This document shows positions 11,545 through 26,481 of a DNA stretch of 52,908 bases, piece by piece. A model generated the notes under the pieces. The model was not told the origin of the DNA and searched no databases. It saw only the letters and a program-made list of their open reading frames with translations. The DNA is from Elusimicrobiota bacterium (GTDB lineage Bacteria; Elusimicrobiota; Elusimicrobia; UBA1565; UBA9628), in assembly GCA_016207665.1 (NCBI GenBank), contig JACQPG010000005.1:1-52908 (forward strand), read 5' to 3'. Within the stretch, counting starts at the first letter, position 1, and each line of letters starts with the position of its first letter. The position numbers and the translations under genes were made by a program.

Positions 11545-12312
11545 CTATAACATCCCGTGTGGGCGATCCCCGTTTTTCTGGTCCTGGCCGCCCGCGCCCA
11601 ACAAGCGCGACACCACGGCGGATGAGAGTCCGATCTCCTTGGCCCTGCCTTTCTCCAGCCATAGGGCTCGATCGCAATGCCGCCCGACCCAATCCAGATC
11701 ATGGCTGACCACGACCACCGTCTTTCCCTCGCGCTTGAGCCTTTCGAACGCGGAAAGGCATTTGGCGCGGAAAGAGAGATCGCCCACCGCTAGAAGCTCG
11801 TCGACGAGAAGCAGGTCCAGGCGGCAGTGCAGGGCCACGGCCAGCGGAAGACGGGCGACCGTTCCCGTGGAGAGCTGCCACAACGGTCTTGCGGTCAGCG
11901 TCCCGAACTCGGCGAATTCCAATATCTCCGGAAGGCTTCGCGATAGCTCGGCCCGGCTCATGCCCAACAGGGCCGCGCAAAACCGGATATTATCCATCAC
12001 GCTCAATTCGGAATGCAGCCCCGCCCCCAGATGGAAGAAAAGCCTGGGCTCGGCCCCCAGACGCACTTGGCCCTCGGAGGGCCGCAGCAGGCCCGAAAGC
12101 AGCCTCAAAAGCGTCGTCTTGCCGGCGCCGTTGGGGCCGATCACTCCGAAGAACTCGCCGCGGCGCAGCTTCAGATCGATGCCTCTTAGGGCCCAAAGCC
12201 TCTCTTCTTCAAGCGAGGAGCCGAGCATGATCCGTCCGAGCCAGCGCGTCAAGCGCGCTCGCGGATGGTCCGAAGCCGGAAAGGCGCGGCCTAGACCAAG
12301 GGCTTCAACCAT
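11545..12312 (-). CDS. ABC transporter ATP-binding protein of polysaccharide-export type
   Basis: A 255-residue ATPase of the KpsT/Wzt/TagH class, expected to power export of a glycan across the inner membrane with the permease at 16523-17305. Walker A is GVIGPNGAGKTTLLRLLSG. The signature region is QLSTGTVARLPLAVAL (LSTG in place of the common LSGG, as often in this class). Walker B is LDLLLVDELLAVGD, and the switch histidine is in VVVSHDLDW. ATG 12312 starts the protein directly at the first strand; an in-frame GTG at 12324 would give a 4-nt overlap with the upstream stop and is an alternative. Last gene of the long minus-strand block. Unusually, it is separated from its likely permease by the 4.2-kb fusion gene. 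Confidence 0.85.
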   Translation of the reverse strand: MVEALGLGRAFPASDHPRARLTRWLGRIMLGSSLEEERLWALRGIDLKLRRGEFFGVIGPNGAGKTTLLRLLSGLLRPSEGQVRLGAEPRLFFHLGAGLHSELSVMDNIRFCAALLGMSRAELSRSLPEILEFAEFGTLTARPLWQLSTGTVARLPLAVALHCRLDLLLVDELLAVGDLSFRAKCLSAFERLKREGKTVVVVSHDLDWVGRHCDRALWLEKGRAKEIGLSSAVVSRLLGAGGQDQKNGDRPHGML

Positions 12313-12320
12313 GATCTCGC

Positions 12321-15300
12321 TCACGAGACCATAGCCCTTGCGCCCTCGAGCCGATCCATATCCGCCAAGACCCGGCGCAGTCCCTGCTCGATGAATTGAT
12401 AATGCTCGATCGACGCCACCGAGCCTCTCTCGAGTTCGGACCCCAGGCCGGCCAGCTTCCGAGGAGAGAGGCCCGTCGGGCCGAAGCTCCCATCGCAAAG
12501 CTCGGTCAAGCGGCCCAGGTCTCGAGTGGACGCAGCCACCCCCTTCTCGAAATAGAGCCGAAGAGCCAGCCAGCGGCAGTAAAGAGCCTCCAGGCCTGTC
12601 AGATGCCCCCGCAATGACCAGGGTCCCCAAGCCAGCCTCCAGGAAAGCGCGAAATTGCATAGCGCCTCCCGGCAAGACTGAGACAAATGAGTCCTCCCCA
12701 GGCTCTCATCGACGCCCTCCCAATCTCCGAGGAACACGGTGTAGACGTCCTTGAGCGGAGCCTCGGCTCCCGATCGGGTCCAGTTGGTCTCAGCCGCGGA
12801 CTCGCGGGGCCTGTCCAAAAAGCGGAAAGGGTCCTCCAGATGCGGCGCATTCAAGGCCAGTCGAGCCAGGCCCGGAGAGAGCATCACGGGCACGGTCCAA
12901 AGAAACGGCTTATCCTGGAAAGCGCGGCGCAGCGCGGCGGCGGCTCTCATCGCGCCATGCAGCCCGGCTCCAGGCTCGAGAACGGCCATGGAACGACCAA
13001 GAGAATCATGCCGATACGCCTTGAGCTCTCCGGAGCTCTCGCGCCTTAGGCAACCGAACCAGCTTTCATCGAGGCCGAGCGGAGCGGGGGCGGAGACGGC
13101 TCGAGCCCGGCAGGTCTCTGCCTCGGCCAGCGGCTCTCCCGGAATCGGGGGCTTGAATCGCCTGTCCATCTCCTCCAAGGCCAAGGCTGCGGATCGGGCG
13201 GGCTCGGCCGCCAGCAGGGAGTTCGCTTCCTCGAGCCAAAGGGGCCCGCGGCCACGGGCAAGGCCTTCGCGGCCGATCAACTCCCGCTCCGGCCCCTCGG
13301 CCGCCAGGCAAAGTCTCGCCAGATCCACGAGCGCCTTTTCCGCGTTCAGCCTTTCCGCGAGCTCCTTTCGCTCAAGGAAAACGTAACGTGTCAACGCCGA
13401 ATAGGCGTGCAGGCATTGGCCAAAGAGACCCAGGACCCGCCGTTGTGAGCATCGCTCGACCACGCCTCCCTCCAGCTCGGTCCGCCTCCAATCGCCATGG
13501 CGCAAATAGACCCGCAGCTCCTCGGGACGCGCCATCAAGACCTCGCCCAAAACGGGAAACACCGCCTTCCATCTCCGATAGCCCCGCCAGAAATCCATCA
13601 CCTCGGAGGCGCCGGCTCGATCGGGCAGCGGACAAAACCAGTCGATATCCGACAATCCGGGTCGAACACGGCCCAAGGCCATGCCCCTTCTCAGTCGAAG
13701 CTCGAAGCCCCGACTCCCGGCCCATGCTCGGACGGCGAAGCCGGCCAGAACATAGAGGCCTGCTCCCAATCGAGCGGCGATTCCATCGGACGCGCGCTTC
13801 AACATCCACTCCCGCAGCCATCGCCGCGCCAGATCCACGGGCGTCTCGACGACGGCTTGACCGCCCGAGACCGCCCGAATGGAACCGGAGGGGGCCAACA
13901 GGCAACGAGCCCTGTTTTGGGCCAGGATCGCCGCCCTGCGCCAGCCCGAGATGCGCGTTCCCAACACCGCCAATCGGCCCGAGCCATAAGCCCCGATCCC
14001 CACCTCCCCCCCGGAGATGCGCTCGCCCAAAAGCAGTAGGCTGCCGCTTTGGGCGTTCACGGCGCTCTGGCCATGAGCCTTCCAACTCCCGAAAAAGAGG
14101 GCGGCCGGGCCCACGCTGACCCAGGAGAAGCCTTCGCCATTGCCCGATAGCCGATGCGCCACGGAAAGCAACCGGCTTCGATCCTGCGCGTAAATGCCGA
14201 GCATCCGGTTGGCCTCGAATCGGCAAGACAACAGGCGCGCCCTCGATCGGTCGCGCAACCAGAGTCCATAGCGGCCGGCTCCGGTCCAGCGGACTCCCCA
14301 AGCCGCCAGGCGGCCCTCCCGCTCCGCCCGCAAGCCTATTTCGCCGCCTCGAATCAGGCAGCCCGCCAGGAGCAGCGACGCGCGGCCCCCGAGTTCTACC
14401 GCGGTGTCCGAGCATGAGAGCAGGCAGCGTCTCATGAGCGCCCTCGATCGCTCGCTCAGACCCGCTCCGGATCGGGTATTCCAGGCGCAATTCCTCATCG
14501 TCAAGAACGCCGAGCCTTGCGCCACGATCGCCCGCTCAAGCCGTGCCCCCCGGCAGGAGACCTGACCGACGCGCGCCGAATCGTGAGCGGATATCCCGCA
14601 CTCTCCATCCCGGAATCGGCATGCCTTCAGATGCAGCCGGGCCCGCCCGGCCGCCCTGACAGCCTGCCTGTTGCCGGCGAATCGGCAATCCCTCGCCGAC
14701 ACGACGGCCTTGCCGGAGCAATCGATTCCCAAAGGGTTGTCCTGGAGCGCGCCGGACTCGGCGATGACCCTGCCTCTCGTGACGCGGCAAGCCACCTCGC
14801 CGCTGGAGGCGATCAAGAATCGCCGCAGTCTCACCGCTCCTCCGGAAACCGACAGCCCCGTCTCGTTGCCCTCCGATCTCAGCTCGCTCGCCTCTAACCG
14901 GGAGTCGCCACTGACCCTCAGTCCAGTCCGGGAGCCGCTCACCTTCACTTCCGCGACCCGAGCGCGGGCTTGTTGCGACAGGACGATCGCGGTCTCGCCT
15001 ACCGCGACCAGGCCTTGGATAAGCGCCTGTCCGCGGCCCTTGAGCGCCAGGGATTCACCGTTCGACAGGAGCTCCAAGCCTTGGGCTTTCAGCTCCCAGG
15101 AGCCCGCGCAAAGCAGGCCATGCCGGGCTCCGCCCAACCGCGAGCTACTGAGCTCCAGGAGGCCGCCCTGAAGCGACAGACCGGTCTGCCGACAGTCGAC
15201 GCAGAGCAGGCCGCGAGCCCTCAGGCGCCCTCGCCCGGCCACCTGCGCGCCGTGAGCGCATGAAGAAGCGCTCACATCCCACAACCGAGCCGAGCTCCGG

Positions 15301-16526
15301 CCCCACACGGCCAAGCCAGAATCATCGCAGTCCGACAGCCGGCTGCGCTTGACCCGTAGGCACGCCCGCCCTCGCGCCACCAGGCCTATCTCCGATAGGC
15401 GGATCGACGCTCCGCTGACCGCCACGGCCGCGGCTTGCTCGCAGACCACGGCTCGCCGCCTGCAGCCGACCGCCTGCAGGCCCTCGATGCGGCCTCGGCT
15501 GCCACCCGAAAAGAGAAGGCCTGACTCGCAAGCCTCGAGTCGCGTGTCTCTCAAGCTCGCCTTCGAGCGGTCGAAGAAGCTCATCGCCACCTCCTGACCC
15601 TTGAGGCTCAGGGATCGCGCGCTCACTCGGCCGCAACCGGAGGCCACGATACCGCCGAAAAGGGGGTGGTCGAATCCCTCCGCCCCCGCCTCGATGTCCA
15701 GCCTGCCTCTCACGATGAGATGCGCCCGGCCCGGTGGATTGGCCCGCAACCAGCGGCCCTGGCTCCAGCGCCAAACGACTGGGCTCTTGACGGGATCAGG
15801 AGCGAAATTCAATCGGGCGGAACTCTTGATCCGCAGTGCGCGGCCGGCGGGCACGATCACGTCGCCGAGCACCCGGACCTCCCCCTCCCACGCCGTGTCC
15901 GCGGCCAACTCGCCCAAAGCCGCGACGGAGGCCGTCCGCGGGCCGGCGCCCTCCTCGGGGCAGCCGGGAAACAGGGCCAGGAGAAGATCGGCCCCTGCCT
16001 CGATCCAGCGCTCGGGCGCATAGGTCCAATGATCTTGGCTGCGTCCGGCCCAAAGCGTCCATCGTTTCGTCTCGCTCCTGCGGCAAATGGGCGCGCGGCA
16101 ATAGGCCCAGACGGCCAGCCAGAGCGTCCTCTCGAGAGCGGCCAATCCGCGAAAAGCCGAGCGCAGCACCGGCAGAGCGATCCAGGCCAGGGCGCCGACC
16201 GCCATGCTGGCGGCCCACCCGGGCGGACGATCCAAGGCGATGCGCCGCGAGCCTCGGCGCACGGCGATCACCCGCGACATGGGCGTGCCGGGTTCCACGA
16301 CCGGATCGAGATGCCTGTTCCCGTCGCCTCCGGTCCAACGGCGTCCCGCCCGACGCCATAACACCCGATGAGCGACCAACGTGGGGCGGCCGGCCGCGTC
16401 TCGTCCCACATAAACCGCCACGTCTCCCCAATCAGGCGAGCCGGGACCGATCTCGATCTCATCCCCATTCCGGATCAGCGGAGCCATGGACGAGCCGAGC
16501 ACGACGCGGCGGAAGGGATCGCTCAT
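12321..16526 (-). CDS. fusion protein: S26-like peptidase, beta-helix, nucleotidyltransferase-like domain
   Basis: A single 1401-residue reading frame with three recognisable parts. Residues 1-95 resemble SipW/archaeal-type signal peptidases (Ser-His dyad): SSMAPLIRNGDEIEI with Ser13, VAHRVLW with His53, then GGDGNRHLD. Hydrophobic stretches follow near residues 105-150. Residues about 205-890 are many short degenerate repeats rich in G, S, C and R, of the form 'ARLHLKACRFRDGECGISAHD', typical of a right-handed parallel beta-helix (pectate-lyase or C5-epimerase fold). From about 900 there is a nucleotidyltransferase-like segment ending GLSDIDWFCPLPD (DxD near 960), followed by a helical tail resembling uncharacterised nucleotidyltransferases found near peptide-maturation genes. 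It overlaps the permease stop by 4 nt. A role in leader cleavage and glycan modification is inference; the fusion itself is what the sequence shows. Confidence 0.8.
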   Translation of the reverse strand: MSDPFRRVVLGSSMAPLIRNGDEIEIGPGSPDWGDVAVYVGRDAAGRPTLVAHRVLWRRAGRRWTGGDGNRHLDPVVEPGTPMSRVIAVRRGSRRIALDRPPGWAASMAVGALAWIALPVLRSAFRGLAALERTLWLAVWAYCRAPICRRSETKRWTLWAGRSQDHWTYAPERWIEAGADLLLALFPGCPEEGAGPRTASVAALGELAADTAWEGEVRVLGDVIVPAGRALRIKSSARLNFAPDPVKSPVVWRWSQGRWLRANPPGRAHLIVRGRLDIEAGAEGFDHPLFGGIVASGCGRVSARSLSLKGQEVAMSFFDRSKASLRDTRLEACESGLLFSGGSRGRIEGLQAVGCRRRAVVCEQAAAVAVSGASIRLSEIGLVARGRACLRVKRSRLSDCDDSGLAVWGRSSARLWDVSASSCAHGAQVAGRGRLRARGLLCVDCRQTGLSLQGGLLELSSSRLGGARHGLLCAGSWELKAQGLELLSNGESLALKGRGQALIQGLVAVGETAIVLSQQARARVAEVKVSGSRTGLRVSGDSRLEASELRSEGNETGLSVSGGAVRLRRFLIASSGEVACRVTRGRVIAESGALQDNPLGIDCSGKAVVSARDCRFAGNRQAVRAAGRARLHLKACRFRDGECGISAHDSARVGQVSCRGARLERAIVAQGSAFLTMRNCAWNTRSGAGLSERSRALMRRCLLSCSDTAVELGGRASLLLAGCLIRGGEIGLRAEREGRLAAWGVRWTGAGRYGLWLRDRSRARLLSCRFEANRMLGIYAQDRSRLLSVAHRLSGNGEGFSWVSVGPAALFFGSWKAHGQSAVNAQSGSLLLLGERISGGEVGIGAYGSGRLAVLGTRISGWRRAAILAQNRARCLLAPSGSIRAVSGGQAVVETPVDLARRWLREWMLKRASDGIAARLGAGLYVLAGFAVRAWAGSRGFELRLRRGMALGRVRPGLSDIDWFCPLPDRAGASEVMDFWRGYRRWKAVFPVLGEVLMARPEELRVYLRHGDWRRTELEGGVVERCSQRRVLGLFGQCLHAYSALTRYVFLERKELAERLNAEKALVDLARLCLAAEGPERELIGREGLARGRGPLWLEEANSLLAAEPARSAALALEEMDRRFKPPIPGEPLAEAETCRARAVSAPAPLGLDESWFGCLRRESSGELKAYRHDSLGRSMAVLEPGAGLHGAMRAAAALRRAFQDKPFLWTVPVMLSPGLARLALNAPHLEDPFRFLDRPRESAAETNWTRSGAEAPLKDVYTVFLGDWEGVDESLGRTHLSQSCREALCNFALSWRLAWGPWSLRGHLTGLEALYCRWLALRLYFEKGVAASTRDLGRLTELCDGSFGPTGLSPRKLAGLGSELERGSVASIEHYQFIEQGLRRVLADMDRLEGARAMVS

Positions 16527-17305
16527 CGCAATCGTTCACCGATCGCCGGGCTGCGCCTCGCGAATAGCCAGCCGCCGGCCAGAGCCAGGACGGTCGCCCA
16601 CAACGCCAATGAGGCCAGCGAAGCCCACGGAGGCCTGCCTTCCAAGAGGCAGGCTCGAAAGGCCGCAAGGAACTGGGCCAAGGGGTTGAGCCAGAGCCAA
16701 TCCCTGATGCCAGGGGGAAGGGCGTCCGTCGCGTAAAAGACCGGGGTCGCGAAGAAGCCGACGTGGGTTCCCAGGGACCACAACCGCTCCGTATCGATGA
16801 ACTCCAAACCGAGCAAGGCCAGGGCAAAGCCCAGGCCCAGAGCCCATAAGAAGAGAAGGGCCGACAAGGCCGGAACCAGCGCCCATGTCCACGTCACCGG
16901 AGTCCCCACGAGAACCAAGAGCAAGGCGAGCACGCCCATCTCCAGCGCGTACGAAAGACCTACCACCAAGACAGATGATATGACGATCAAGCCGCGGGGA
17001 AAGGAAAAGTTCTTGATCAACGGCGCCTTGCGGCGCAAACTGGTCAGGGCATTGGAAGTCGCCGAGACGAAGAAATTCCACTGCAGCAGTCCAACAAGCA
17101 GGAAGCTTCCGTAGCCGGGCACATCCCGTCCGATCCAACCGCCGAAAATCAGATAGAGCGACGCGAACATGGCCGCTGGATAAAGAAGGGTCCAACAAAA
17201 GCCGAAGACACTGCCCTGATCCCGCAGTTTGAATTCGCAACGGGTCAGCTCCCAAAGAACGTGCCAACAACGGTACAGAGACTCAGCGCGAGGCATAGAC
17301 CTCAT
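16523..17305 (-). CDS. ABC-2 type permease, polysaccharide exporter
   Basis: A 260-residue integral membrane protein with about six hydrophobic segments, in the KpsM/Wzm/TagG family that exports lipid-linked glycans with a Wzt-like ATPase. The N terminus LTRCEFKLRDQGSVFGFCWT and the NALTSLRRKAPLIKNFSFPR loop are family hallmarks, as is FYATDALPPGIRDWLWLNP near the C terminus. ATG 17305 is used; ATG 17296 is also possible. It overlaps the glycosyltransferase end by 23 nt and the fusion-gene start by 4 nt. Its ATPase partner is most likely the product of 11545-12312. Confidence 0.88.
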   Translation of the reverse strand: MRSMPRAESLYRCWHVLWELTRCEFKLRDQGSVFGFCWTLLYPAAMFASLYLIFGGWIGRDVPGYGSFLLVGLLQWNFFVSATSNALTSLRRKAPLIKNFSFPRGLIVISSVLVVGLSYALEMGVLALLLVLVGTPVTWTWALVPALSALLFLWALGLGFALALLGLEFIDTERLWSLGTHVGFFATPVFYATDALPPGIRDWLWLNPLAQFLAAFRACLLEGRPPWASLASLALWATVLALAGGWLFARRSPAIGERLR

Positions 17306-18386
17306 GATAGCCGGAGGCGGTAAAGCGCCAATCGAAGTTCCCGGCCGTGCGCAGCGCGTTTTGCCCGAGTTGCCGGCGAAGCTCGTCGTCGCGCAGCAGA
17401 CGGTCGAGGACCTCGACTAGCGAGCCCAGGTCCTTGGGCTGCGCCAAAAGGCCGTTATAGCCGTGCCGCACGATTTCGCTCAGACCCCCGCAGCGTGATG
17501 CCACCACGGGCTTGCCGCAGGCCATCGCTTCGAGGGCGGATAGTCCCAAGGCCTCCTGGCGCGAGGGCAGGGCGAGAAACAGGCAATCGGCCAGGAGCCG
17601 ATCCAATTCGGCGCGCGGCAAGACTCCCTCGTAGCTGACCCAGGGTTCGAGGCGCAGCAGACTGATCAGACCCTGTATATGGCCCGGGTTGAAATCCGGT
17701 CCGGTCAACAACAGCCTCACTCGATGTCCGCGATCCAAAAGCTCCCTCCATGCCATCACCAAGATGTCGACCCCCTTATAGGAAGCGAGCCTGCCGGTGA
17801 AAAGGACATAAGGAAAATGCGGAGGACCCGCTTCGCGCGGACGATAATGAGCGCTGTCAACGCCGTGATAAACCAGGGCCGGCTCGCCGGCCAATCCCCG
17901 GAACGTCTGCCGGACGCGATCGCCGACGTAACGGGAGTTCACGGTCACCCCATGGCTTAGACAAAGCGCGACGCCAAGCAGCACGCGGCCCGGCCAGCCC
18001 AAAGGCGGCGCGCTGGGGTTATCGAAATCGTTGAAGCTGAGCACCATGCGCCGGCCTGAAAGCCGGCACCAAAGGGCCATCCAAAGCACGGGCCAACGGA
18101 ATTCGCCCGAAAAATGTACGTGGACTATCTCGCAGCCCTCGGCCCTTGCGGCGCGAGCGAAGCCGAGGAACTGGAAAGAGGCGTTCGACAACCCCCAATA
18201 GCGCCGCGGCACCCGCCGCCAGGTCGCCGTCCCGCTTTGCTCCCGCAGGGGAAGGCCGGAATGGGCGCGGCCGATCACGGCGACCACCTCATGCCCCAAG
18301 CGGGCCAGTTCCCGCGAGAGATTTCCGAAAGTATTGAGCCAAGCGGGATTATCGCCGTAGCCGAAGGAGACCAGAGCGATCCTCAT
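17283..18386 (-). CDS. GT4-family glycosyltransferase
   Basis: A 367-residue GT-B fold glycosyltransferase. The N-terminal MRIALVSFGYGDNPAWLNTF with the glycine loop, the acceptor-side VHVHFSGEFRWPV, the linker VYHGVDSAHYRP, the donor-side LFTGRLASYKGVDILVMAW and the EX7E-type segment PSRQEALGLSALEAMACGKP near residue 280 are all present. It probably adds a hexose from a nucleotide sugar at the cytosolic face. The ATG at 18386 lies 14 nt after the stop of the small peptide gene. A longer in-frame reading upstream was rejected because it would cover the peptide gene and lacks family sequence. Confidence 0.88.
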   Translation of the reverse strand: MRIALVSFGYGDNPAWLNTFGNLSRELARLGHEVVAVIGRAHSGLPLREQSGTATWRRVPRRYWGLSNASFQFLGFARAARAEGCEIVHVHFSGEFRWPVLWMALWCRLSGRRMVLSFNDFDNPSAPPLGWPGRVLLGVALCLSHGVTVNSRYVGDRVRQTFRGLAGEPALVYHGVDSAHYRPREAGPPHFPYVLFTGRLASYKGVDILVMAWRELLDRGHRVRLLLTGPDFNPGHIQGLISLLRLEPWVSYEGVLPRAELDRLLADCLFLALPSRQEALGLSALEAMACGKPVVASRCGGLSEIVRHGYNGLLAQPKDLGSLVEVLDRLLRDDELRRQLGQNALRTAGNFDWRFTASGYHEVYASR

Positions 18387-18400
18387 CGGCCGCCGCCGAC

Positions 18401-18508
18401 TCAGTAAAGGAGCTGAAAGGCGCGTATCTCCGGTTCCAGGGATCCGTGCTGGGTCAGCTTCGGCTTGCGATAGGGCTTTTTCTTCTTTTTTTCCTTCTTG
18501 GCTCTCAT
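18401..18508 (-). CDS. 35-residue peptide with lasso-type leader motif, candidate modified-peptide precursor
   Basis: A short gene whose ATG (18508) overlaps the stop of the PqqD-like gene in an ATGA arrangement, with GAGG 4 nt before the start. The peptide begins MRAKKEKKKKKP (eight Lys in residues 4-11, apart from Glu6) and continues PYRKPKLTQHGSL. This fits the leader consensus Y-x2-P-x-L-x3-G recognised by the PqqD-like element of lasso-peptide systems exactly (Tyr13, Pro16, Leu18, Gly22). After Gly22 only 13 residues follow, ending EIRAFQLLY. This lacks the Thr at the usual cleavage position and is too short for a lasso ring and tail. It may be a carrier, signal or otherwise modified peptide. 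It lies between the chaperone-like gene and a glycosyltransferase. The coding call rests on coupling plus the motif. Confidence 0.78.
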   Translation of the reverse strand: MRAKKEKKKKKPYRKPKLTQHGSLEPEIRAFQLLY

Positions 18509-18792
18509 AGTTCCTCTGAGGCCAGCAGTTTCGAACGGGATAATTCCCGCACCAGCTCGGAGACATCCCTTTTTATCTTCTCGGCGGGAGCGTCATATTC
18601 CAGCGCCAAGTCCGCCGCGATCTCATGAGCGGCGCGCCCCTCGCACAAGAGCTCCCATATCCTGGTCCCGATGGGATCGAGCGAATAATAATGGCTCGAC
18701 TCGAGATCCAGCACTATGGCTTGGTCTTCCACCTTGCGCCAGGCGATGCTGGCCGGGACCTTCCAGGCCGGCGTGGCGTTATCGCTCACCAT
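18505..18792 (-). CDS. PqqD-family peptide chaperone (RiPP recognition element)
   Basis: A 95-residue stand-alone PqqD-like protein, a winged-helix fold that in RiPP systems holds the leader of a precursor peptide and presents it to modifying enzymes. Typical sequence: VPASIAWRKVEDQAIVLDLE, then HYYSLDPIGTRIWELLCEG, AAHEIAADLALEYDAP and DVSELVRELSRSKLL. It overlaps the kinase-like gene by 14 nt and the peptide gene by 4 nt. The peptide's Y-x2-P-x-L-x3-G motif is the type of sequence these proteins bind, so the pair is very likely functional together. Confidence 0.9.
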   Translation of the reverse strand: MVSDNATPAWKVPASIAWRKVEDQAIVLDLESSHYYSLDPIGTRIWELLCEGRAAHEIAADLALEYDAPAEKIKRDVSELVRELSRSKLLASEEL

Positions 18793-19840
18793 GAGATCGT
18801 TTGGATTCTACCATTGCGGGAAGAGCGCGGTCCAGGGTCTGGCCCATCGAACCCTCGACGAAGCGGAGCAAGACGCCGGCGCTTGCGCCCGGGTCGGGAC
18901 TTAAGTCGAATCGGAATATCTCCGCGCGGGCGATGATGCTCAAGGCTCTAAGCGCCCGAGAAAGGGCGATCGATGACAGGCGCGCCACCCGGCGGGGCCT
19001 GAAACCCAACATATATTCCCCCATCTGCGCCAGGCCTTGGCCCAGCACGAGATGACGGGCCAGGGCCGCCAAGGCTTCCGTCCGATCAGCCTTCTTGATC
19101 GAGGCGCCTCCCCGGCCCGGGCGGCCTATGAGCAACCATCGCAAGCTCGCGCTCCAGGCCATCGATCCCAGGAACGGCTCCAGATCGATCACGCGCTTGG
19201 CGGGAAAACCGGCGCGATGGAAAACCCGGACATGGCGGGGCTCTATATCGCTTAGATCGGCGTCGGACCTGAAGGCCCATCGCGTCGGAAAGGCCAATAT
19301 TCTTAGATCGCGATCGATGAGCGGACTCTCCTCGCTCAGCCAGCGGAGTCTCCCCGATCGCCACGTTTCCAGGGCCAAGCGGCTCTTGCCCCCGCCGCTG
19401 GGCAAGAGCAACAGACCACCCTCGCCCAAACGCTCGAAGCCAAAGGCATGGATCCTGTGCAACCCGGCCTCGTCCAAGGCCTCTCCCACGCGGGAGAGGA
19501 TACCGAGATAGGCCAACTCATGCAGCCTCCCCGGCTCCCCGGCGAAGAGTTCAAACCGTCGCTCCCGTTCCTCGAAGATGATTCCCGAGCCGTCGGCGGC
19601 GAGCATGATCCTTCGCTCAGGCCTCTCATGCACCTCCCAGCCCTTCCAACTCCAATCCGGCCGCCCTGCGGGACGCCGCCGCTGCGGAAAGGAAACCGGC
19701 TCCAAGACCCAGGAAAGAAGCCTCGCTCCCGCGCGTCCCGCCCGGAAGCCGCGAAAATCGCGTCCTAACTCCTCCACCACGGGGCCTGGACCCGCGATCT
19801 CGACCGTCGTCCCATAAAAATCGAGGGTCAGGCTCGGCAT
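18779..19840 (-). CDS. HPr-kinase-like protein linked to PqqD and peptide
   Basis: A 353-residue protein with a P-loop kinase core resembling the C-terminal domain of HPr serine kinase: LLLLPSGGGKSRLALETW near residue 135 (Walker A), LRWLSEESPLIDRDLRILAF (acidic motif), then AFPTRWAF and HRAGFPAKRVIDLEPF. Related kinases occur beside PqqD-like proteins in exopolysaccharide and lasso-peptide gene clusters, and one phosphorylates a lasso precursor. Here the target could be the 35-residue peptide (Ser23, Thr19 or Tyr) or a sugar; this is inference. It overlaps the GT2 gene by 13 nt and the PqqD-like gene by 14 nt. Confidence 0.82.
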   Translation of the reverse strand: MPSLTLDFYGTTVEIAGPGPVVEELGRDFRGFRAGRAGARLLSWVLEPVSFPQRRRPAGRPDWSWKGWEVHERPERRIMLAADGSGIIFEERERRFELFAGEPGRLHELAYLGILSRVGEALDEAGLHRIHAFGFERLGEGGLLLLPSGGGKSRLALETWRSGRLRWLSEESPLIDRDLRILAFPTRWAFRSDADLSDIEPRHVRVFHRAGFPAKRVIDLEPFLGSMAWSASLRWLLIGRPGRGGASIKKADRTEALAALARHLVLGQGLAQMGEYMLGFRPRRVARLSSIALSRALRALSIIARAEIFRFDLSPDPGASAGVLLRFVEGSMGQTLDRALPAMVESKRSHGER

Positions 19841-20817
19841 TCCCGGCTCCGGATCAAGCCCCAGAATATTCCCGCGACATAGGCGCAGTGAGCCGTGGGA
19901 AACAGCAAGGCGGTCCAGCAGGCCACTCTGGGGCTACGCGCGCCCAAGCCGGCCCGTCCCGCCTCGGCCAGGCAGGCGATTAAGTACAGGAGCGACGGGC
20001 ACAGCCAGAGCCCGGAGCCGGCCAGGCCGGCAATCAGGGAGGCCAGAAGGGCTAGAGGCGCCAAGATCATGGGCGGGAAAGAACCCGGCTCCCATCGCGT
20101 GATCTGGCCGCGGCCCACGCCATAACCGAATAGCTGTACAAACCACGCGCTCAATCGTGACCGGCGCTCGTGATAGACGAAAAGCTCTGGGCAGTAGAGG
20201 GTCTTTCCGCCGTTGCGCTCCAAGCGATGGAGAAGCAGGGTTTCTTCGGCTGTGCGGGAAGCAGGAAAGCGCAAGCGCTCCACCTCGAAAACATCGCGAC
20301 GGAGCATCAGGTTGCTGGAGGTGAAGCACCAGCCCGGAAGGGAACGGTCGCCGCCAGTCCGACGATACCTGATCGAGGCCGGCCCGCTGCCCAACAACGA
20401 GCTCAAGAAGGCGTCGGCGGCTCGTTGGAACGGGGTCGAGTCCGGCGGAGCCAGATTCGGTCCTCCCAACGCCAAGACCCTGGCCCGGGACAGCTTCTCC
20501 CAGACCCTCTCCAAGAAGCGATCATCCGGAAAAAAGGCGTCATCGTCGATGAAGTAGAACCAGTCTCCGGAGGCCCGCGCCGCCAATAGATTCCTGGCCG
20601 GACCGGGAGCGCGGCGCTCCATGCTCACCCACCCCACCCAGGGAAATCGGACCGCGAGTTCCAGAAAGGTTCCGTCTTCAAGAGCATCCTCTCCGTTGAG
20701 GCCCACCAAGACCTCGATCCGCTCCCGGCCCCGGCAGCGCTCGAGGCTCTCGAGGCAACGGCGCAGCTCGGCCGGACGCCGGCGGGAAAGGATGATCAAG
20801 GTCAAGGAGGCGGGCAT
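19828..20817 (-). CDS. GT2-family glycosyltransferase with C-terminal membrane segments
   Basis: A 329-residue GT-A fold glycosyltransferase. MPASLTLIILSRRRPAELRR starts the domain; VLVGLNGEDA, RRAPGPARNLLAARASGDW and the DxD-type metal motif FYFIDDDAFFP follow near residue 95. TAEETLLLHRLERNG carries the late acidic motif. Two or three hydrophobic segments near residues 235-320 suggest membrane anchoring. ATG 20817 lies just 2 bases after the radical SAM stop; a longer in-frame reading upstream runs inside that gene and was rejected. It is part of the same coupled series. Confidence 0.87.
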   Translation of the reverse strand: MPASLTLIILSRRRPAELRRCLESLERCRGRERIEVLVGLNGEDALEDGTFLELAVRFPWVGWVSMERRAPGPARNLLAARASGDWFYFIDDDAFFPDDRFLERVWEKLSRARVLALGGPNLAPPDSTPFQRAADAFLSSLLGSGPASIRYRRTGGDRSLPGWCFTSSNLMLRRDVFEVERLRFPASRTAEETLLLHRLERNGGKTLYCPELFVYHERRSRLSAWFVQLFGYGVGRGQITRWEPGSFPPMILAPLALLASLIAGLAGSGLWLCPSLLYLIACLAEAGRAGLGARSPRVACWTALLFPTAHCAYVAGIFWGLIRSRECRA

Positions 20818-20819
20818 GA

Positions 20820-21962
20820 TCAGGCGATGAGCTGGTCGAGCACCGGAGTCGCCATGCAGCGCAACCAGCAATGACATCGCCCGGAGTCGACGAATTCCCT
20901 CACCGCCCTCGCCTTGTCCGAGCTCCAAACGGCGTCCAGGGGCTGGTTTCGAACATTGCCCGCGCTCATATCGCGATTGACGGGGCAAAAGAACAACTCT
21001 CCCTCCGGATCGAGCATCACGTGGCGCCGGCCGGCGCCGCAACGGCGAAAAAAGGAGAAACGCTCCGGCTGGGCGCCGTACTGGGAGAGATAATCCCAGT
21101 AGAGAAGCTCGGACCAAAGCCACCCCCATCGCTCCCGCTCCGGCGAGCGCCAGCGGCGAAGAGCCTCGTGCTTGCGGCACAAATGTCTCAAGACCTCGGC
21201 GATCCCCGCCATCGCGGCGGCCCGGCTGCCATCGTCCCATCGCACCGGCTCCGCTCCGTCGCGCTCGATGACCCATTGGGCGCCCAGGCTGCAGCCCAAT
21301 TCCTCCTCCACGAAGCGATAGGCCCTGAAGACTTCCCGGGCGTTGCGCGGCGTGATGGTGAAGGTGAAGCCGAATGGGATGTCCGGAAACTCCCCGCGCA
21401 GCGCCTTGACGGTACTGATCAAGCCGGCGAAGGCTCCGCGCTGCCCCCGCACCTCGTCATGGGTCGTCTCGATGCCGTCCAACGAGGAGCCCAAGCGAAG
21501 AGCCTTGAGACCCCGCCCGCGGAGCTCCGAGAGCTTGAGTCTCAGATGGCCCGTATTCCAGAAGTTAGTGAGGACGATGATGCTCGCCTCGGGGAATCGG
21601 GCTCCGAGGAAGGCGAGGATGCCGACTATATCGTGGCGCAGCCATGGCTCGCCGCCCGTCACGACGATCTGGCCTATCCCGCGCAGCAGCGCCGAGCCCT
21701 CCACGGCCTCGCGGATATCCTCGAAACTCATTTCCCTGCCGACGGACCGAGGGTCCGAATGCTCGAGCCGCCAGTGCTCGCACATGACGCATTTGAGATT
21801 GCAACGATGAGTCAGTTCCAGGTGCAGCTCGGTGGGAGCCGGAGGCTCGGTGGGCGGAGGCGCGTTCTGGAGTCGCCGCCGCAACTGAAAGCGCAGATAT
21901 TCCCACTCGAGCTCGTCTCGAGCCCGCTCCAGGGACAGCCCCGATGGCGCTGGCACGATCAA
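20820..21962 (-). CDS. radical SAM protein with SPASM/Twitch-like C terminus
   Basis: A 380-residue radical SAM enzyme. The 4Fe-4S cluster motif CxxxCxxC is in LTHRCNLKCVMCEHW near residue 55, followed by IVVTGGEPWLRHDI (the GGE motif) near 98. The C terminus has additional cysteines, FFRRCGAGRRHVMLDPEG, FFCPVN and GRCHCWLRC, that fit a SPASM-type auxiliary cluster, as in enzymes that modify ribosomal peptides. The start is taken as TTG 21962, which overlaps the livF stop (TTGA); GTG 21956 is an alternative. In context, the peptide gene 3 kb downstream is a candidate substrate. Other roles, such as modifying a sugar or lipid, cannot be excluded. Confidence 0.85.
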   Translation of the reverse strand: MIVPAPSGLSLERARDELEWEYLRFQLRRRLQNAPPPTEPPAPTELHLELTHRCNLKCVMCEHWRLEHSDPRSVGREMSFEDIREAVEGSALLRGIGQIVVTGGEPWLRHDIVGILAFLGARFPEASIIVLTNFWNTGHLRLKLSELRGRGLKALRLGSSLDGIETTHDEVRGQRGAFAGLISTVKALRGEFPDIPFGFTFTITPRNAREVFRAYRFVEEELGCSLGAQWVIERDGAEPVRWDDGSRAAAMAGIAEVLRHLCRKHEALRRWRSPERERWGWLWSELLYWDYLSQYGAQPERFSFFRRCGAGRRHVMLDPEGELFFCPVNRDMSAGNVRNQPLDAVWSSDKARAVREFVDSGRCHCWLRCMATPVLDQLIA

Positions 21963-22678
21963 AGCCCGAGATAAGCCTTTTGCACAGAGGAGTCGGCCAT
22001 AAGATCGCAGGCCGCCCCGCAGCCGCAGATCAGGCCGGTCTCAAGCACATAGGCCCTCGCCGCCAGGGATAGCGCCCTTCTGGCGTTCTGCTCGACCAGG
22101 AACACGGTCACGCCCTCTCGATTGATGCGCTCGATGATCTCGAACACGCGATCGACCACGATGGGAGCCAGGCCCATGGACGGCTCATCGAGCATGAGCA
22201 GCCTTGGCGCCGCCATCATGGCCCGCCCGATGGCCAGCATCTGTTGCTCCCCGCCCGAAAGAGTGCCTCCGAGCTGCGCCCGTCTCTTGCCCAGCACGGG
22301 GAAAAGCTCGAATACATGGGCCATCTCCCGGGAAAGATCGGCTCCGCGCCGCCAATAGGCTCCCATCTCGAGGTTCTCGACCACGCTCAAGCGCGGGAAT
22401 ATCCGCCTCCCCTCGGGCACGAGGGCGATCCCTTGCCTGACGATCTCGAACGACGCTCGCCCGACCATGGAACGACCCTCGAACAGGACCTGGCCTCGCT
22501 CGGGCTTGAGTTGCCCCGCCACGGTCTTGAGCAACGTAGTCTTGCCCGCGCCGTTATTGCCGATCAAGGCCACGATCTCCCCCCGCCCGATCTCGAGGCT
22601 GACGCCCTTGAGCGCCCTGATCTTGCGGCCGTAGACGCAATGAAGGTCCCTGATCTCCAACACGGGGCCGGCGCTCAT
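21959..22678 (-). CDS. livF: branched-chain amino-acid ABC transporter ATP-binding protein LivF
   Basis: A 239-residue ATPase of the LivF type, one of two ATPases of the branched-chain amino-acid importer. Walker A is ALIGNNGAGKTTLLKTVAG, the signature GGTLSGGEQQMLAIGRAMM, Walker B LLMLDEPSMGLAPIVV, and the LivF-typical VPEGRRIFPRLSVVENLEMG is present. The ATG overlaps the livG stop (ATGA), and its stop overlaps the likely start of the radical SAM gene. Confidence 0.95.
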   Translation of the reverse strand: MSAGPVLEIRDLHCVYGRKIRALKGVSLEIGRGEIVALIGNNGAGKTTLLKTVAGQLKPERGQVLFEGRSMVGRASFEIVRQGIALVPEGRRIFPRLSVVENLEMGAYWRRGADLSREMAHVFELFPVLGKRRAQLGGTLSGGEQQMLAIGRAMMAAPRLLMLDEPSMGLAPIVVDRVFEIIERINREGVTVFLVEQNARRALSLAARAYVLETGLICGCGAACDLMADSSVQKAYLGL

Positions 22679-23472
22679 GCTCCCTTGCCCAGATAGGCCT
22701 CGATGACCTTAGGATCGCTCACGACCTCATGGGGCTTGCCCTCGGCGATCTTGAGCCCATAATCGAGCACCGCCACCCGATCCGAGATATCCATGACCAC
22801 CCGCATTTGGTGCTCGATGAGCATCACCGCGATGCCTCTTTCCCGCACCCTCATGACCAGCTCCACCAGGTCCCGGCTTTCCGTCGGATTCATGCCGGCG
22901 GTCGGCTCGTCGAGGATGAGCAGCTCCGGCTCCGTCGCCAGGGCTCGCGCGATCTCCAGACGCCGCTGCAGGCCGTAGGGCAGATTCTTGGCCAGCTCAT
23001 TGCCGCAGGAAAGCATCCCGACGAAGCCGAGCGCGTCCTTGGCCGCGGCTTCGATCGCCCTTTCCTCGGTCTTGAAGGAAGGCCAGCGCAGCAGAGGGCC
23101 CAGCAGGCGCTGGCTGGAACGGCAATGCCGGCCTACCATCACGTTCTCGAGGGCCGTCATATTGGAGAACAAGCGGATATTCTGGAAAGTCCTCGCGATC
23201 CCCAAGGCCGTGATCCGATGCGAGGGCAGGCCGCGGATCGGCTGGCCCTTGAACTGGATCTCTCCGCGCGTGCCCGGGTAGACCCCGGTCAAGACGTTGA
23301 AAAGCGTGGTCTTCCCGGCTCCATTCGGTCCGATCACGCTGACTATTTCCCGACGATCGATGGACAATGCCACCTGGTCGATCGCCTTCAGCCCTCCGAA
23401 ATGTTGGGCCAGGCCCGTGATGCATAACAGCGGGCTAGTCCGCCGTTCCGTAGACTCGCGGAATTCAGGCAT
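22675..23472 (-). CDS. livG: branched-chain amino-acid ABC transporter ATP-binding protein LivG
   Basis: A 265-residue LivG-type ATPase. Walker A is SVIGPNGAGKTTLFNVLTGV, the LivG hallmark GIARTFQNIRLFSNMTALEN follows, then the signature region NLPYGLQRRLEIARAL, Walker B LLILDEPTAGMNPTES and switch histidine LIEHQM. The start overlaps the livM end by 8 nt. It works with LivF on the LivHM membrane pair. Confidence 0.95.
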   Translation of the reverse strand: MPEFRESTERRTSPLLCITGLAQHFGGLKAIDQVALSIDRREIVSVIGPNGAGKTTLFNVLTGVYPGTRGEIQFKGQPIRGLPSHRITALGIARTFQNIRLFSNMTALENVMVGRHCRSSQRLLGPLLRWPSFKTEERAIEAAAKDALGFVGMLSCGNELAKNLPYGLQRRLEIARALATEPELLILDEPTAGMNPTESRDLVELVMRVRERGIAVMLIEHQMRVVMDISDRVAVLDYGLKIAEGKPHEVVSDPKVIEAYLGKGA

Positions 23473-24412
23473 CGGAGAGCTCGGCCTCGCGCCGCTTCGA
23501 GGGCCACAGGCCCTGCGGCCGGAAAAGCGTCACCAGGACCAGGATCAAACCGAAGAAGAGATAGCGATAATTGATCCACTGGGGAGAAAGGACCGCTTGC
23601 ATCAGCACGGGACAACCGCTCAAGATCAGGGCGCCCAGCAGCACCCCGCCGACCGAGCCCATGCCGCCCAGCACGACGATGGAAACCACCAGGATCGATT
23701 CCCAGAATACGAAGGATTCCGGGGTGACGAATTGTTCCCAGTAGGCGAAAAGCGCTCCGGCCAGGCCCGCGAAGACGGCGCTCAAGACGAAAGCCAGGAG
23801 CTTGAGCGGGCCGACCGCGATGCCCGAGAGGGCCGCGGCGGTCTCGTCCTCGCGTATAGCCACCCAGGCGCGCCCGATCCTTGAGTGCTCCATGCGGCGC
23901 GAGGCCGCGACCGAGAGAAGGATCACGGCCATGATGAGATAATAGAAATAGACGTTCTCCGTCATGACGAGGCCGAAAAGACGCAATGGAGGAACCTGCA
24001 GACCCTTTGGGCCGTTGGTGATCGTATCGAGATTGTTGATCGCCAGGCGAGTGATCTCGCCGAAACCCATGGTGACCACGGCGAGGTAATCGCCCCTCAA
24101 CCGCAGTATGGTCACGCCCAGCAGCGATCTGATCAAGACCGCAGCAGCGACCGCCAAGGGAATGGCCAGCCAAGGAGATAAGCCGCCGCGGGCGCAGAGA
24201 GCGGCGGTATAGGCGCCGACGCCGTAAAAGGCGACGTAGCCCAGGTCGAAAAGGCCGACGTATCCGAGGGTGAAATTGAGCCCGATGCCCAATATCATGT
24301 AGAGGCCCACGATGCCTCCCGCCCGCACCAAATGCTCCAGCTCGCCGCCCCGCACCAGCCATGGCAAGAGGGCCGCGCTGACGATGAGCGCGGCTCCCGC
24401 CCAGCGACGCAT
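23465..24412 (-). CDS. livM: branched-chain amino-acid ABC transporter permease LivM
   Basis: A 315-residue permease with about eight to ten hydrophobic segments. The family sequence ILGIGLNFTLGYVGLFDLGY near residue 40 and LRGDYLAVVTMGFGEITRL near 105 are typical of LivM, as is the late GGMGSVGGVLLGALIL. ATG 24412 is used; a GTG at 24424 would overlap the livH stop by 4 nt and is equally possible. It pairs with LivH. Confidence 0.93.
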   Translation of the reverse strand: MRRWAGAALIVSAALLPWLVRGGELEHLVRAGGIVGLYMILGIGLNFTLGYVGLFDLGYVAFYGVGAYTAALCARGGLSPWLAIPLAVAAAVLIRSLLGVTILRLRGDYLAVVTMGFGEITRLAINNLDTITNGPKGLQVPPLRLFGLVMTENVYFYYLIMAVILLSVAASRRMEHSRIGRAWVAIREDETAAALSGIAVGPLKLLAFVLSAVFAGLAGALFAYWEQFVTPESFVFWESILVVSIVVLGGMGSVGGVLLGALILSGCPVLMQAVLSPQWINYRYLFFGLILVLVTLFRPQGLWPSKRREAELSDA

Positions 24413-24420
24413 CGGAAAGC

Positions 24421-25317
24421 TCACACCTTTTCGGCGATCCTCTCGCCCAGCAGTCCGGAAGGCCGGACCAGCAGGACCAGGATCAAGATGCCGAACGCTA
24501 TCACGTCCCGCCATTGAGCTCCATTGGGTATATAGCCGGCCGACATCACCTCGAGGCCGCCGAGTATGAAACCTCCCAGAACCGCGCCGCGGATATTGCC
24601 GATGCCGCCCAGAACGGCCGCGGTGAAGGCCTTGGCTCCGGGCATGAATCCGAGATTGTATTTGATCGATCCGTAGTACATCCCGTAGAGAACGCCCGCC
24701 GCGCCTCCCAGGGCGCCCCCGATAAGGAATGTCAGGGCGATGACCCGGTTGGCGTCGATGCCCATCAGGCCGGCCGTCTCGATGTCATCGGAGCAAGCGC
24801 GCATCGCCTTGCCCACCTTGGTATGTTCGATGAAGAAATGCAGGCCCAGCATCAGGGCGAGCGCTGCGGCCAAGATCACGGCCTGCAGCGAACTCACCGT
24901 CGCTCCGAACAGCTCGATGTGGGAAAGGGCCACGACCTCGGGAAAACGCATGGATTGGGTGCTGACCCACAGAAACACCGTGTTCTGAAGCACGATGGAG
25001 ACTCCGATCGCGGAGATGAGAGGGGCCAATCTGGAGAGATGCCTCAGAGGCCGATAGGCGAATCTCTCAATGATCGCATTGAGCATGCCGGCGCCGGCCA
25101 TGGCGGCCAGGAAGAGGACGAGCAATGCCGCGAGTCCCGAGGCGCCGCCTCCCATCATCCAAGCCAGTCCCAAGGCGACGAAAGAGCCCAGCATGAGAAC
25201 CTCGGAATGGGCGAAATTGATCATGGTGAGTATTCCATAGACAAGGGTATAGCCCAGCGCGATCAACGCGTAAATGGCTCCGAGCGTCAGCGCGTTGACG
25301 ATCTGCTGGGCAAGCAC
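24421..25317 (-). CDS. livH: branched-chain amino-acid ABC transporter permease LivH
   Basis: A 298-residue permease with many membrane segments. Characteristic pieces are ALGYTLVYGILTMINFAHSE near the N terminus, MRACSDDIETAGLMGIDANR in the cytoplasmic coupling loop and AVLGGIGNIRGAVLGGFILG near the C terminus. The start is GTG (25317), 9 bp after the binding-protein gene. Confidence 0.94.
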   Translation of the reverse strand: MLAQQIVNALTLGAIYALIALGYTLVYGILTMINFAHSEVLMLGSFVALGLAWMMGGGASGLAALLVLFLAAMAGAGMLNAIIERFAYRPLRHLSRLAPLISAIGVSIVLQNTVFLWVSTQSMRFPEVVALSHIELFGATVSSLQAVILAAALALMLGLHFFIEHTKVGKAMRACSDDIETAGLMGIDANRVIALTFLIGGALGGAAGVLYGMYYGSIKYNLGFMPGAKAFTAAVLGGIGNIRGAVLGGFILGGLEVMSAGYIPNGAQWRDVIAFGILILVLLVRPSGLLGERIAEKV

Positions 25318-25326
25318 TGGGGGCGC

Positions 25327-26481
25327 CTAATTGACGGCCGGGAAGCTTCGATCCTTGGCGCGGGCCTGAGTCATAGTGATCACCTTGTTGAGGGTGTCCC
25401 CTTTCTCGTCGAATTGAGTGGTGCCCACCAGACCTTGGTAGCGGGTCTCCTTGAGCGCCTCGATCATCTTCTTGCGATCGGGGCCGGCCCGTTCCATGGC
25501 CTGGAAGATGATCTGGGCGGCCTCGTAACCGAAATGGTCGAAGGGCTTGATCTCTTGCCCAGGGCCGGTCCAGCGTCTGCCGTAATTGGCCACGAACTCG
25601 CGCGCGCTCTTGAGCAGCTCCACCGGCACGCCGACGATGGTGAGATAGGCGCCATCCGCCGCTTCTCCGGCGACGTCGAAGAGCCCCGTGGTCTTGGCTC
25701 CATCACCGGAGAAAAAGGCTGTCTTCATCCCCAGCTCGCGCATCTGCTTGACGATCAAGCCCGCTTCGGTGTAAAGGCCTCCGAAGTAAAGACCCTCAGG
25801 CTTATTGTCCTTGATGCGCGTCAGCAACGCCTTGAAATCGCGGTCGCCCACGGAGATGCCGTCCTCGCTGACGATCTGCCCCCCCAATTGCGAAAAGCGC
25901 CTGCGAAACTGCTCCGCCAGGCCTTGCCCATACGGAGTCTTATCGTGCATGATCGAAACCCGTTTCTTGCCCAGCTTGTTGTAGACGAACTCCGCCGCGT
26001 AAGAGCCTTGGACATCATCGGTCGGCACCACCCTGAAGACCACCCGCGGCCCGCTCCATTCCTCTTTAAGCTGCTGGGCGGTCACCTCGGGATTGGTGGC
26101 CGCCGGAGTGATCATCGGCACGCCGCCTCGCGAATAAACCTTGGCCGCTGGGATGGCGCAGCCGGAATTGTAATGTCCGACCACGGCCACCACTCGACTA
26201 TCCGAAATGATCAAATTGGCGACATTGACGGCTTCCTTGGGATCGGCGCGATCATCATAAGGTACGGCCTCGACTCTATAAGGAAAACGCTTCGAGGCGT
26301 TGGCCTCTTCAACGGCCAGCTCCACGGCGCGCCGCAAGCCCTGCCCCTCAGTGCCCATATCTCCTGTCAGAGGAACCGCGACGGCGATGCGAGCCACCTT
26401 CTCTCGCGGACCGCAACCCGCGGCCGAAAACGCCGCCAGGAACCCCAGGATCACGCCGATCGGCACCCTTCTCTGGCTCAT
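25327..26481 (-). CDS. livJ: periplasmic amino-acid-binding lipoprotein, LivJ/LivK-like
   Basis: A 384-residue type I periplasmic-binding protein that would capture branched-chain amino acids or a related small molecule and deliver it to LivHM. The N terminus ILGFLAAFSAAGCGPREK is a lipoprotein signal with Cys as the anchor. AVPLTGDMGTEGQGLRRAVE, AVVGHYNSGCAIPAAKVYS and GVPMITPAATNPEVT follow the family closely. The operon order binding protein, LivH, LivM, LivG, LivF is classical. It is preceded by a strong Shine-Dalgarno (GAGGGGG, 26493-26487) and a good promoter. The ligand is not certain, because the family also includes urea and aliphatic amide binders. Confidence 0.92.
   Translation of the reverse strand: MSQRRVPIGVILGFLAAFSAAGCGPREKVARIAVAVPLTGDMGTEGQGLRRAVELAVEEANASKRFPYRVEAVPYDDRADPKEAVNVANLIISDSRVVAVVGHYNSGCAIPAAKVYSRGGVPMITPAATNPEVTAQQLKEEWSGPRVVFRVVPTDDVQGSYAAEFVYNKLGKKRVSIMHDKTPYGQGLAEQFRRRFSQLGGQIVSEDGISVGDRDFKALLTRIKDNKPEGLYFGGLYTEAGLIVKQMRELGMKTAFFSGDGAKTTGLFDVAGEAADGAYLTIVGVPVELLKSAREFVANYGRRWTGPGQEIKPFDHFGYEAAQIIFQAMERAGPDRKKMIEALKETRYQGLVGTTQFDEKGDTLNKVITMTQARAKDRSFPAVN

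Follow-up and report, generated by a model that had tools for sequence, protein, structure and literature searches.

The peptide gene and its family

The window analyzed here is the whole of a 52,908-nucleotide (nt) stretch of contig JACQPG010000005.1 from a bacterium of the phylum Elusimicrobiota (assembly GCA_016207665.1), and the element in question is a minus-strand open reading frame (ORF, 18401-18508) that translates to a 35-residue peptide, MRAKKEKKKKKPYRKPKLTQHGSLEPEIRAFQLLY. Its ATG overlaps by 4 nt the stop codon of a gene for a PqqD-like protein (18505-18792), with AGAGGA immediately 5′ of the ATG. After a Lys-rich front, the peptide carries YRKPKLTQHG, an exact match to the lasso-type leader motif Y-x2-P-x-L-x3-G, and 13 residues, the Thr-free tail SLEPEIRAFQLLY, follow the leader Gly. 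The overlap, the exact motif and the Lys run had been pointed out in a preliminary description made from the letters of the window; the overlap is seen again here, the motif is conserved throughout the relatives in the class, and the Lys-rich front is common to a whole peptide family. It is reasonably likely that the ORF encodes the precursor of a system special to Elusimicrobia that is akin to those of ribosomally synthesized and post-translationally modified peptides (RiPPs) and depends on a RiPP recognition element (RRE), here the PqqD-like protein.

By itself, the motif in the window is weak evidence, having no significance against shuffled sequence (one small ORF with the motif was observed, and shuffles held 0.23 on average). 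The ORF stands beyond chance because it is conserved: a profile of 38 relatives, from which the window was excluded, matches it at E 1.9e-11, and nothing in the rest of the window falls below E 2. No Pfam or NCBIfam model covers the peptide, the best being lasso_cyano with 18.6 of 33 bits. A lack of conservation in relatives and of coding constraint, named in the preliminary description as what would speak against the peptide, was looked for; the profile match and an excess of synonymous over nonsynonymous differences (pS > pN) were found instead. In the two largest length groups, substitutions are mostly synonymous, with pS of 0.63-0.68 vs pN of 0.24-0.27. The family is under purifying selection, and the window ORF is real and coding.

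Profile searches found the family in 38 of 236 genomes of one Elusimicrobiota class, and no member among the Elusimicrobiota genomes from outside that class. A search for further short motif genes by pairs of PqqD-like and HPr-kinase-like genes had been proposed earlier; here, the profile gave the 38 carrier genomes, and the C-terminal ends of their peptides were sorted into types. Members share the Lys-rich front and a block of the form [YW]xxPx[LIVM]xxHG ([LIV] in the core form), followed by a tail of 8-19 residues. Four main tail types, drawn up by eye after inspection of the tails, are distinguished after the HG: type A, K(I/L)S(E/D)VASAFKP, in family f8; type B, xL(S/A)(Q/K)TALA(R/H)SY; type C, 13 residues with a Tyr end, such as PLDSDVAAFSALY, SLNSQIASFRTFY and the tail of the window peptide; and type D, VLSIVEGD. 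A few genomes (G168, G170, G192) have tails outside these types, and one (G122) carries two tandem copies with near-identical leaders and different tails.

Antibiotic-type RiPP cores are usually more variable than their leaders. Within tail types (tail pS 0.47-0.66), tail pN is below that of the leader block in type A (0.010 vs 0.121), type B (0.125 vs 0.262) and type D (0.000 vs 0.239). The near-invariant tails of two of the four main types, A and D, point to a conserved product, which may be a cofactor, a glycan primer or a surface peptide rather than an antibiotic. Near-fixed ends are also found in mycofactocin precursors (PMC3023750), and the case for a conserved product is one by analogy.

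Divergent peptides were sought beside the RREs of genomes without a carrier peptide, and nothing clear was found. Two peptides of genomes G114 and G115, MSVKKKKKYQKPVIKSEKIFETAALACGKCLSGPISQYACKTLSRLS and its sister (L170:853-996, plus strand; L173:4526-4672, minus strand), adjoin genes for PqqD-like and radical S-adenosylmethionine (SAM) proteins; they bear a KKKYQKP leader, as in the family, on a Cys-bearing core, which suggests that one leader is common to several peptide classes in the group. In genome G111, a short ORF just upstream of L122:8764-10021 encodes a divergent peptide ending in KKWVKPELTDVSGRVMAQPYIRFT and precedes an RRE gene, itself divergent, and a gene for a radical SAM protein.

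The recognition element and the kinase

A member of the RRE family is present in all 38 peptide genomes and a kinase of the family in 37. Fisher tests give 1e-32 and 3e-34, respectively, across the class, and within family f1 the values are 4e-5 and 8e-6; since genomes are taken as independent in these tests and phylogeny is ignored, the significance is overstated. Peptide and kinase lie on separate contigs in several genomes (e.g. G168, G170, G187, G193), and the peptide, the RRE and the kinase are found in the same genomes also where their genes are not linked. The AlphaFold model of the PqqD-like protein (predicted local distance difference test, pLDDT, 87) has the RRE fold; the structures closest to it are those of TbiB1 with a bound lasso leader (5v1v, root-mean-square deviation 1.1 Å, template modeling score 0.84) and TfuB1 with a leader. 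Against the NCBIfam lasso-PqqD model, the protein scores 50.6, the cut-off being 70.

For the kinase, a fold search was used because its sequence match to the Protein Data Bank (PDB) is too weak (HprK, E 0.03); the AlphaFold model (pLDDT 91.7) matches structures of PEPCK at E 1e-9, that is, the superfamily of HPr kinase. Relatives were found in 45 genomes. Among them, the residues of lasso-precursor kinases (PadeK/ThcoK/BsfK type) are kept, the His in 41/41 sequences with the column, the Lys in 42/42 and the second Asp in 41/42, and the Ser/Thr too. Most relatives thus have the His-Lys-Asp-Asp motif; in the window copy, the His, Lys and Ser are present, but Glu-Glu stands where relatives have (D/E/N)-D. 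The His-Lys spacing of 21 in relatives, and that of the window copy, H131-(21)-K152, is as in BsfK (PMC10368454). A scan of genome contigs with the single kinase protein gave no match, and a tighter alignment than one of 19 sequences, too diverse for searching, was used. Kinase relatives from Deltaproteobacteria, Planctomycetota, Pseudomonadota and Solirubrobacteraceae (L132-L134, L136, L139, L142-L144) have no peptide or PqqD-like gene within their 8 kb flanks.

Tail type and the radical SAM enzyme

The tail type of the peptide goes together with a radical SAM family, defined by the SPASM protein of the window (alignment A6) and counted as present at E below 1e-100. Of the 13 genomes whose tails are of type B or C, 12 have this family, and of the 22 that have A or D tails only, none does (p 1.6e-8), a comparison with tail types set post hoc and a profile made in part from Tyr-tail genomes; the family is also found in the three genomes with other tails. 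Within f8, C tails are confined to G125, G133 and G147, which are the only f8 genomes with the radical SAM family; within f3, G187 alone has a C tail and the enzyme, and within f7, G081 has both. Because of this scattered co-occurrence, the match between tail and enzyme is not just a matter of descent. In a tree of the RREs (79 columns, many unresolved forks), the three f8 genomes with C tails have RREs in a clade of their own, to which the A-tail RREs do not belong; both kinds are present in G133, with one RRE each.

As is general for RRE-dependent RiPP systems, the RRE gene lies beside that of a short, conserved precursor-like peptide. That a modifying enzyme is matched to the precursor core is strongly suggested by the covariation, which is an association only. 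The preliminary description had taken the peptide to be the substrate of the surrounding enzymes: the covariation strongly suggests this.

Absence of lasso-making enzymes from the locus

The peptide is not a lasso peptide because both lasso-making enzymes are missing from the locus. Lasso B2 (PF13471) is over the cut-off in 4/235 genomes of the class, none of them with the peptide, and the genome of the window gave no match. In the 13 genomes tested, genes of the Asn-synthetase-like cyclase type (PF00733) exist elsewhere in 13/13, but none was found closer than ~28 kb to the peptide, and none on the window contig. Nor does the window peptide, with only 13 residues after the leader Gly and no Thr among them, fit the lasso pattern of Thr (or Ile) at -2 of the leader before a core that starts with Gly, Cys, Ala or Ser and has Asp or Glu at positions 7-9. 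A lasso peptide was accordingly considered and rejected, with B2 absent from the carriers, no cyclase-type gene near and the tail short and Thr-free, in agreement with the preliminary description, which had seen no normal lasso precursor and no B2 or C gene nearby.

Elsewhere in the class, B2 genes over the cut-off lie at L123, L124, L125 and L126 (genomes G124, G155, G217 and G116); three of the four loci also match the kinase profile weakly, and two have an RRE. These other genomes may hold genuine lasso-like clusters.

Gene neighborhood

The operon of the window is summarized in Table 1. The GT4 ATG at 18386 lies 14 nt downstream of the peptide gene, and outside f8 a GT4 gene is usually found directly 3′ of the peptide. 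In f8, the gene order is radical SAM, RRE, peptide, FabD-like acyltransferase (PF00698) and kinase. The 1401-residue protein of the window, combining S26B-like, beta-helix and nucleotidyltransferase-like parts, recurs at RRE/peptide loci of the class, either as such or with the S26B-like and nucleotidyltransferase-like domains apart.

Table 1. Features of the peptide operon in the window
Feature	Positions	Strand	Basis or remark
ABC exporter ATPase	11545..12330	-	start approximate; ORF reaches 12675
1401-aa protein: S26B-like peptidase domain, right-handed beta-helix, nucleotidyltransferase-like domain	12321..16526	-	PF13229
Nucleotidyltransferase-like domain, C-terminus of the 1401-aa protein	~12321-13736		GLSDID motif
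S26B-like Ser/His peptidase domain, N-terminus of the 1401-aa protein	~16107-16526		TIGR02228 E 2.8e-4, below cut-off
ABC-2 exporter permease, polysaccharide-export type	16523..17305	-	PF01061; galactan-export permease match below cut-off
GT4 glycosyltransferase	17283..18386	-	usual 3′ neighbor of the peptide outside f8
Precursor-like peptide: Lys-rich front, RRE-recognition block YRKPKLTQHG, 13-residue tail SLEPEIRAFQLLY (C-type, Tyr end)	18401..18508	-	leave-one-out profile, 38 genomes
PqqD-like stand-alone RRE	18505..18792	-	PF05402 E 4.5e-18; by sequence, TbiB1/TfuB1 best PDB relatives; AlphaFold
HprK/PEPCK-superfamily kinase-like protein	18779..19840	-	AlphaFold, PEPCK fold, motif table
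GT2 glycosyltransferase	19828..20820	-	best NCBIfam match MftF (E 7.6e-25, below cut-off)
Radical SAM/SPASM protein, family co-varying with Tyr-ending tails	20820..21962	-	PF04055, PF13186

At f8 loci such as L060 and L067, the FabD-like acyltransferase after the peptide has a GRSMG nucleophile elbow, ordinary FabD having GHSxG. In the window, a run of genes like those of a branched-chain amino-acid ABC importer adjoins the operon (21959-26481), and a squalene-hopene-cyclase-like protein is read from the translation of 28925-30982.

Relation to known systems

The nearest known systems are lasso clusters with a split B1, a kinase K and a nucleotidyltransferase N, as in paeninodin, pseudomycoidin (psm) and Bradymonas (bsf) (PMC9266682, PMC10368454). 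They share with the Elusimicrobia system a YxxPxL leader, a stand-alone PqqD-type RRE, an HprK-like precursor kinase (His-Lys-Asp-Asp, with Glu-Glu in the window copy), a nucleotidyltransferase-like partner and an ABC exporter. Unlike them, the Elusimicrobia system is without B2 and without a nearby Asn-synthetase-like cyclase, its tail is too short and has no ring-acceptor pattern, and it has radical SAM and S26B-like domains as well as class-specific tails. Mycofactocin (Haft 2011, PMC3023750) is similar in its short peptide with a conserved Tyr end (as in B and C tails), its RRE, its radical SAM/SPASM enzyme and a GT2 to which that of the window is closest (MftF). However, the CGVY end is missing (the window tail ends in QLLY, and A and D tails have no Tyr end), the radical SAM protein and the GT2 reach 53.9 vs 265 bits and 87.7 vs 280 bits of the curated cut-offs, and the Elusimicrobia system has in addition the kinase and the S26/nucleotidyltransferase protein.

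An HprK-related kinase with a PqqD-family protein is also found in the HPr-rel-A system (TIGR04352/TIGR04353), whose models the present one matches far below the cut-offs (18 vs 35 bits for the RRE, 20-26 vs 200 for kinases of relatives), and for which no description of a peptide substrate was found in the papers searched. The SynChlorMet cassette (TIGR04248-04251) likewise has a PqqD-like protein and a radical SAM enzyme, and one kinase relative weakly matches ScmC, but all matches are far below the cut-offs. RRE-Finder (PMC7470986) reported nearly 8,000 lasso-type discrete RREs, about half of them without peptidase and cyclase and about 300 with radical SAM, and described the orphan lasso-type RREs as possible false positives. 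The Elusimicrobia system belongs to this orphan pool, and its precursor family, its partners and the covariation of tail and enzyme are defined here. Literature searches found no published description of it in Elusimicrobia; altogether, the system is of a known general kind, being RRE-dependent, and its precursor family and combination of partners are new.

Proposed system and alternative explanations

Probably, the peptide is a precursor from which a new kind of modified peptide is made. From its fold, the leader motif and the coupling of the genes, the stand-alone RRE would very probably bind the YxxPxLxxHG leader and could then offer the short tail at the C-terminus to the enzymes that modify it. 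The covariation suggests Tyr-ending tails (B and C) as the target of the radical SAM/SPASM enzyme, and, by analogy with PsmK and PsmN acting on pseudomycoidin (PMC9266682), the kinase, the nucleotidyltransferase-like domain and the glycosyltransferases may phosphorylate and/or glycosylate the tail. Domain type and operon make the S26B-like domain a candidate leader peptidase and the ABC-2 transporter a candidate exporter, both being guesses. More tentatively still, these parts may make up an Elusimicrobia RiPP class of its own, with lasso-type recognition and no lasso chemistry, in which an RRE, short and mostly near-invariant cores, radical SAM/SPASM chemistry and phosphorylation, nucleotidylation or glycosylation would yield a cofactor or a glycan-linked surface peptide; this is a possibility that we hold with less than even confidence.

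Several points weigh against the precursor reading. The binding, modification and product of the peptide are predicted from genes, and the S26 and nucleotidyltransferase domains reach no Pfam or other curated cut-off. The RRE or the kinase is often on another contig than the peptide, the Fisher values are inflated and the tail types were drawn up after inspection of the tails, as given above, and G193 has a Tyr-ending tail without the radical SAM family, all 32 of its candidates having been scored. In type C, which is that of the window, the tail (pN 0.341) varies more than the leader block (0.181), and the argument for a conserved product fails for this type. No Ser or Thr is common to all tails, so there is no shared phospho-acceptor. 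In the window, the kinase has Glu170-Glu171 (SEESPL) where relatives have S(D/E/N)DxPL, making it the sole copy of 42 without the second Asp, and the only Ser of the tail is next to the Gly; among the peptides listed by these kinases, it alone has no further Ser/Thr. BsfK phosphorylates Ser and Thr, not Tyr. Because of the Glu-Glu pair and the tail without further Ser/Thr, phosphorylation may have been lost or altered in the genome of the window, a hint from one genome.

A serious rival, if a rather unlikely one, is that the peptide serves as a carrier or primer, an RRE-held scaffold on which the glycosyltransferases, or in f8 the FabD-like acyltransferase, would build a glycan or an acyl chain for ABC-2 export. 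The GT4 gene directly 3′ of the peptide in many loci outside f8, the acyltransferase gene (PF00698) in the same place in f8, the polysaccharide-type exporter of the window operon and the near-invariant A and D tails would all fit such a role; however, the covariation of tail type with the radical SAM family favors chemistry on the tail, and no hydroxyl or amine is found in all tails as an attachment site. The preliminary description had left the peptide as a carrier or a new class, and both are kept here, with the precursor of a modified peptide favored over the carrier. It is improbable that the peptide is instead an adaptor or regulator, staying unmodified and serving to dock the RRE onto a glycosyltransferase or a kinase: this would agree with the very short tail, the strong constraint on A and D tails and the unlinked positions in several genomes, but the tandem copies of G122 with diverged tails and the cognate RRE/radical SAM pairs resemble pairs of substrate and enzyme.

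Two further explanations have far less to recommend them. A decayed lasso system, in which a former precursor lost its core along with B2 and C, would account for leader motif, RRE and kinase all being of lasso type, yet it is disfavored and highly improbable, as most tails are under strong purifying selection, the family is conserved throughout the class and the B2-bearing genomes are four others without the peptide. That the ORF arose by chance, as the 0.23 motifs expected per window in small ORFs could allow, is refuted by conservation, seen in the profile match, the synonymous bias and the conserved position.

Significance

On the precursor reading, one pool of the orphan lasso-type RREs, in a class mostly without cultured members, is provided with a defined family of substrates and set of partners, and tail type is paired with the radical SAM enzyme in a way that can be tested. 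The findings also suggest that a kinase and a nucleotidyltransferase known as lasso-tailoring enzymes can belong to a lasso-free system. Moreover, the stronger constraint on A and D tails than on the leader points to a conserved cellular role of the peptide rather than one in warfare.
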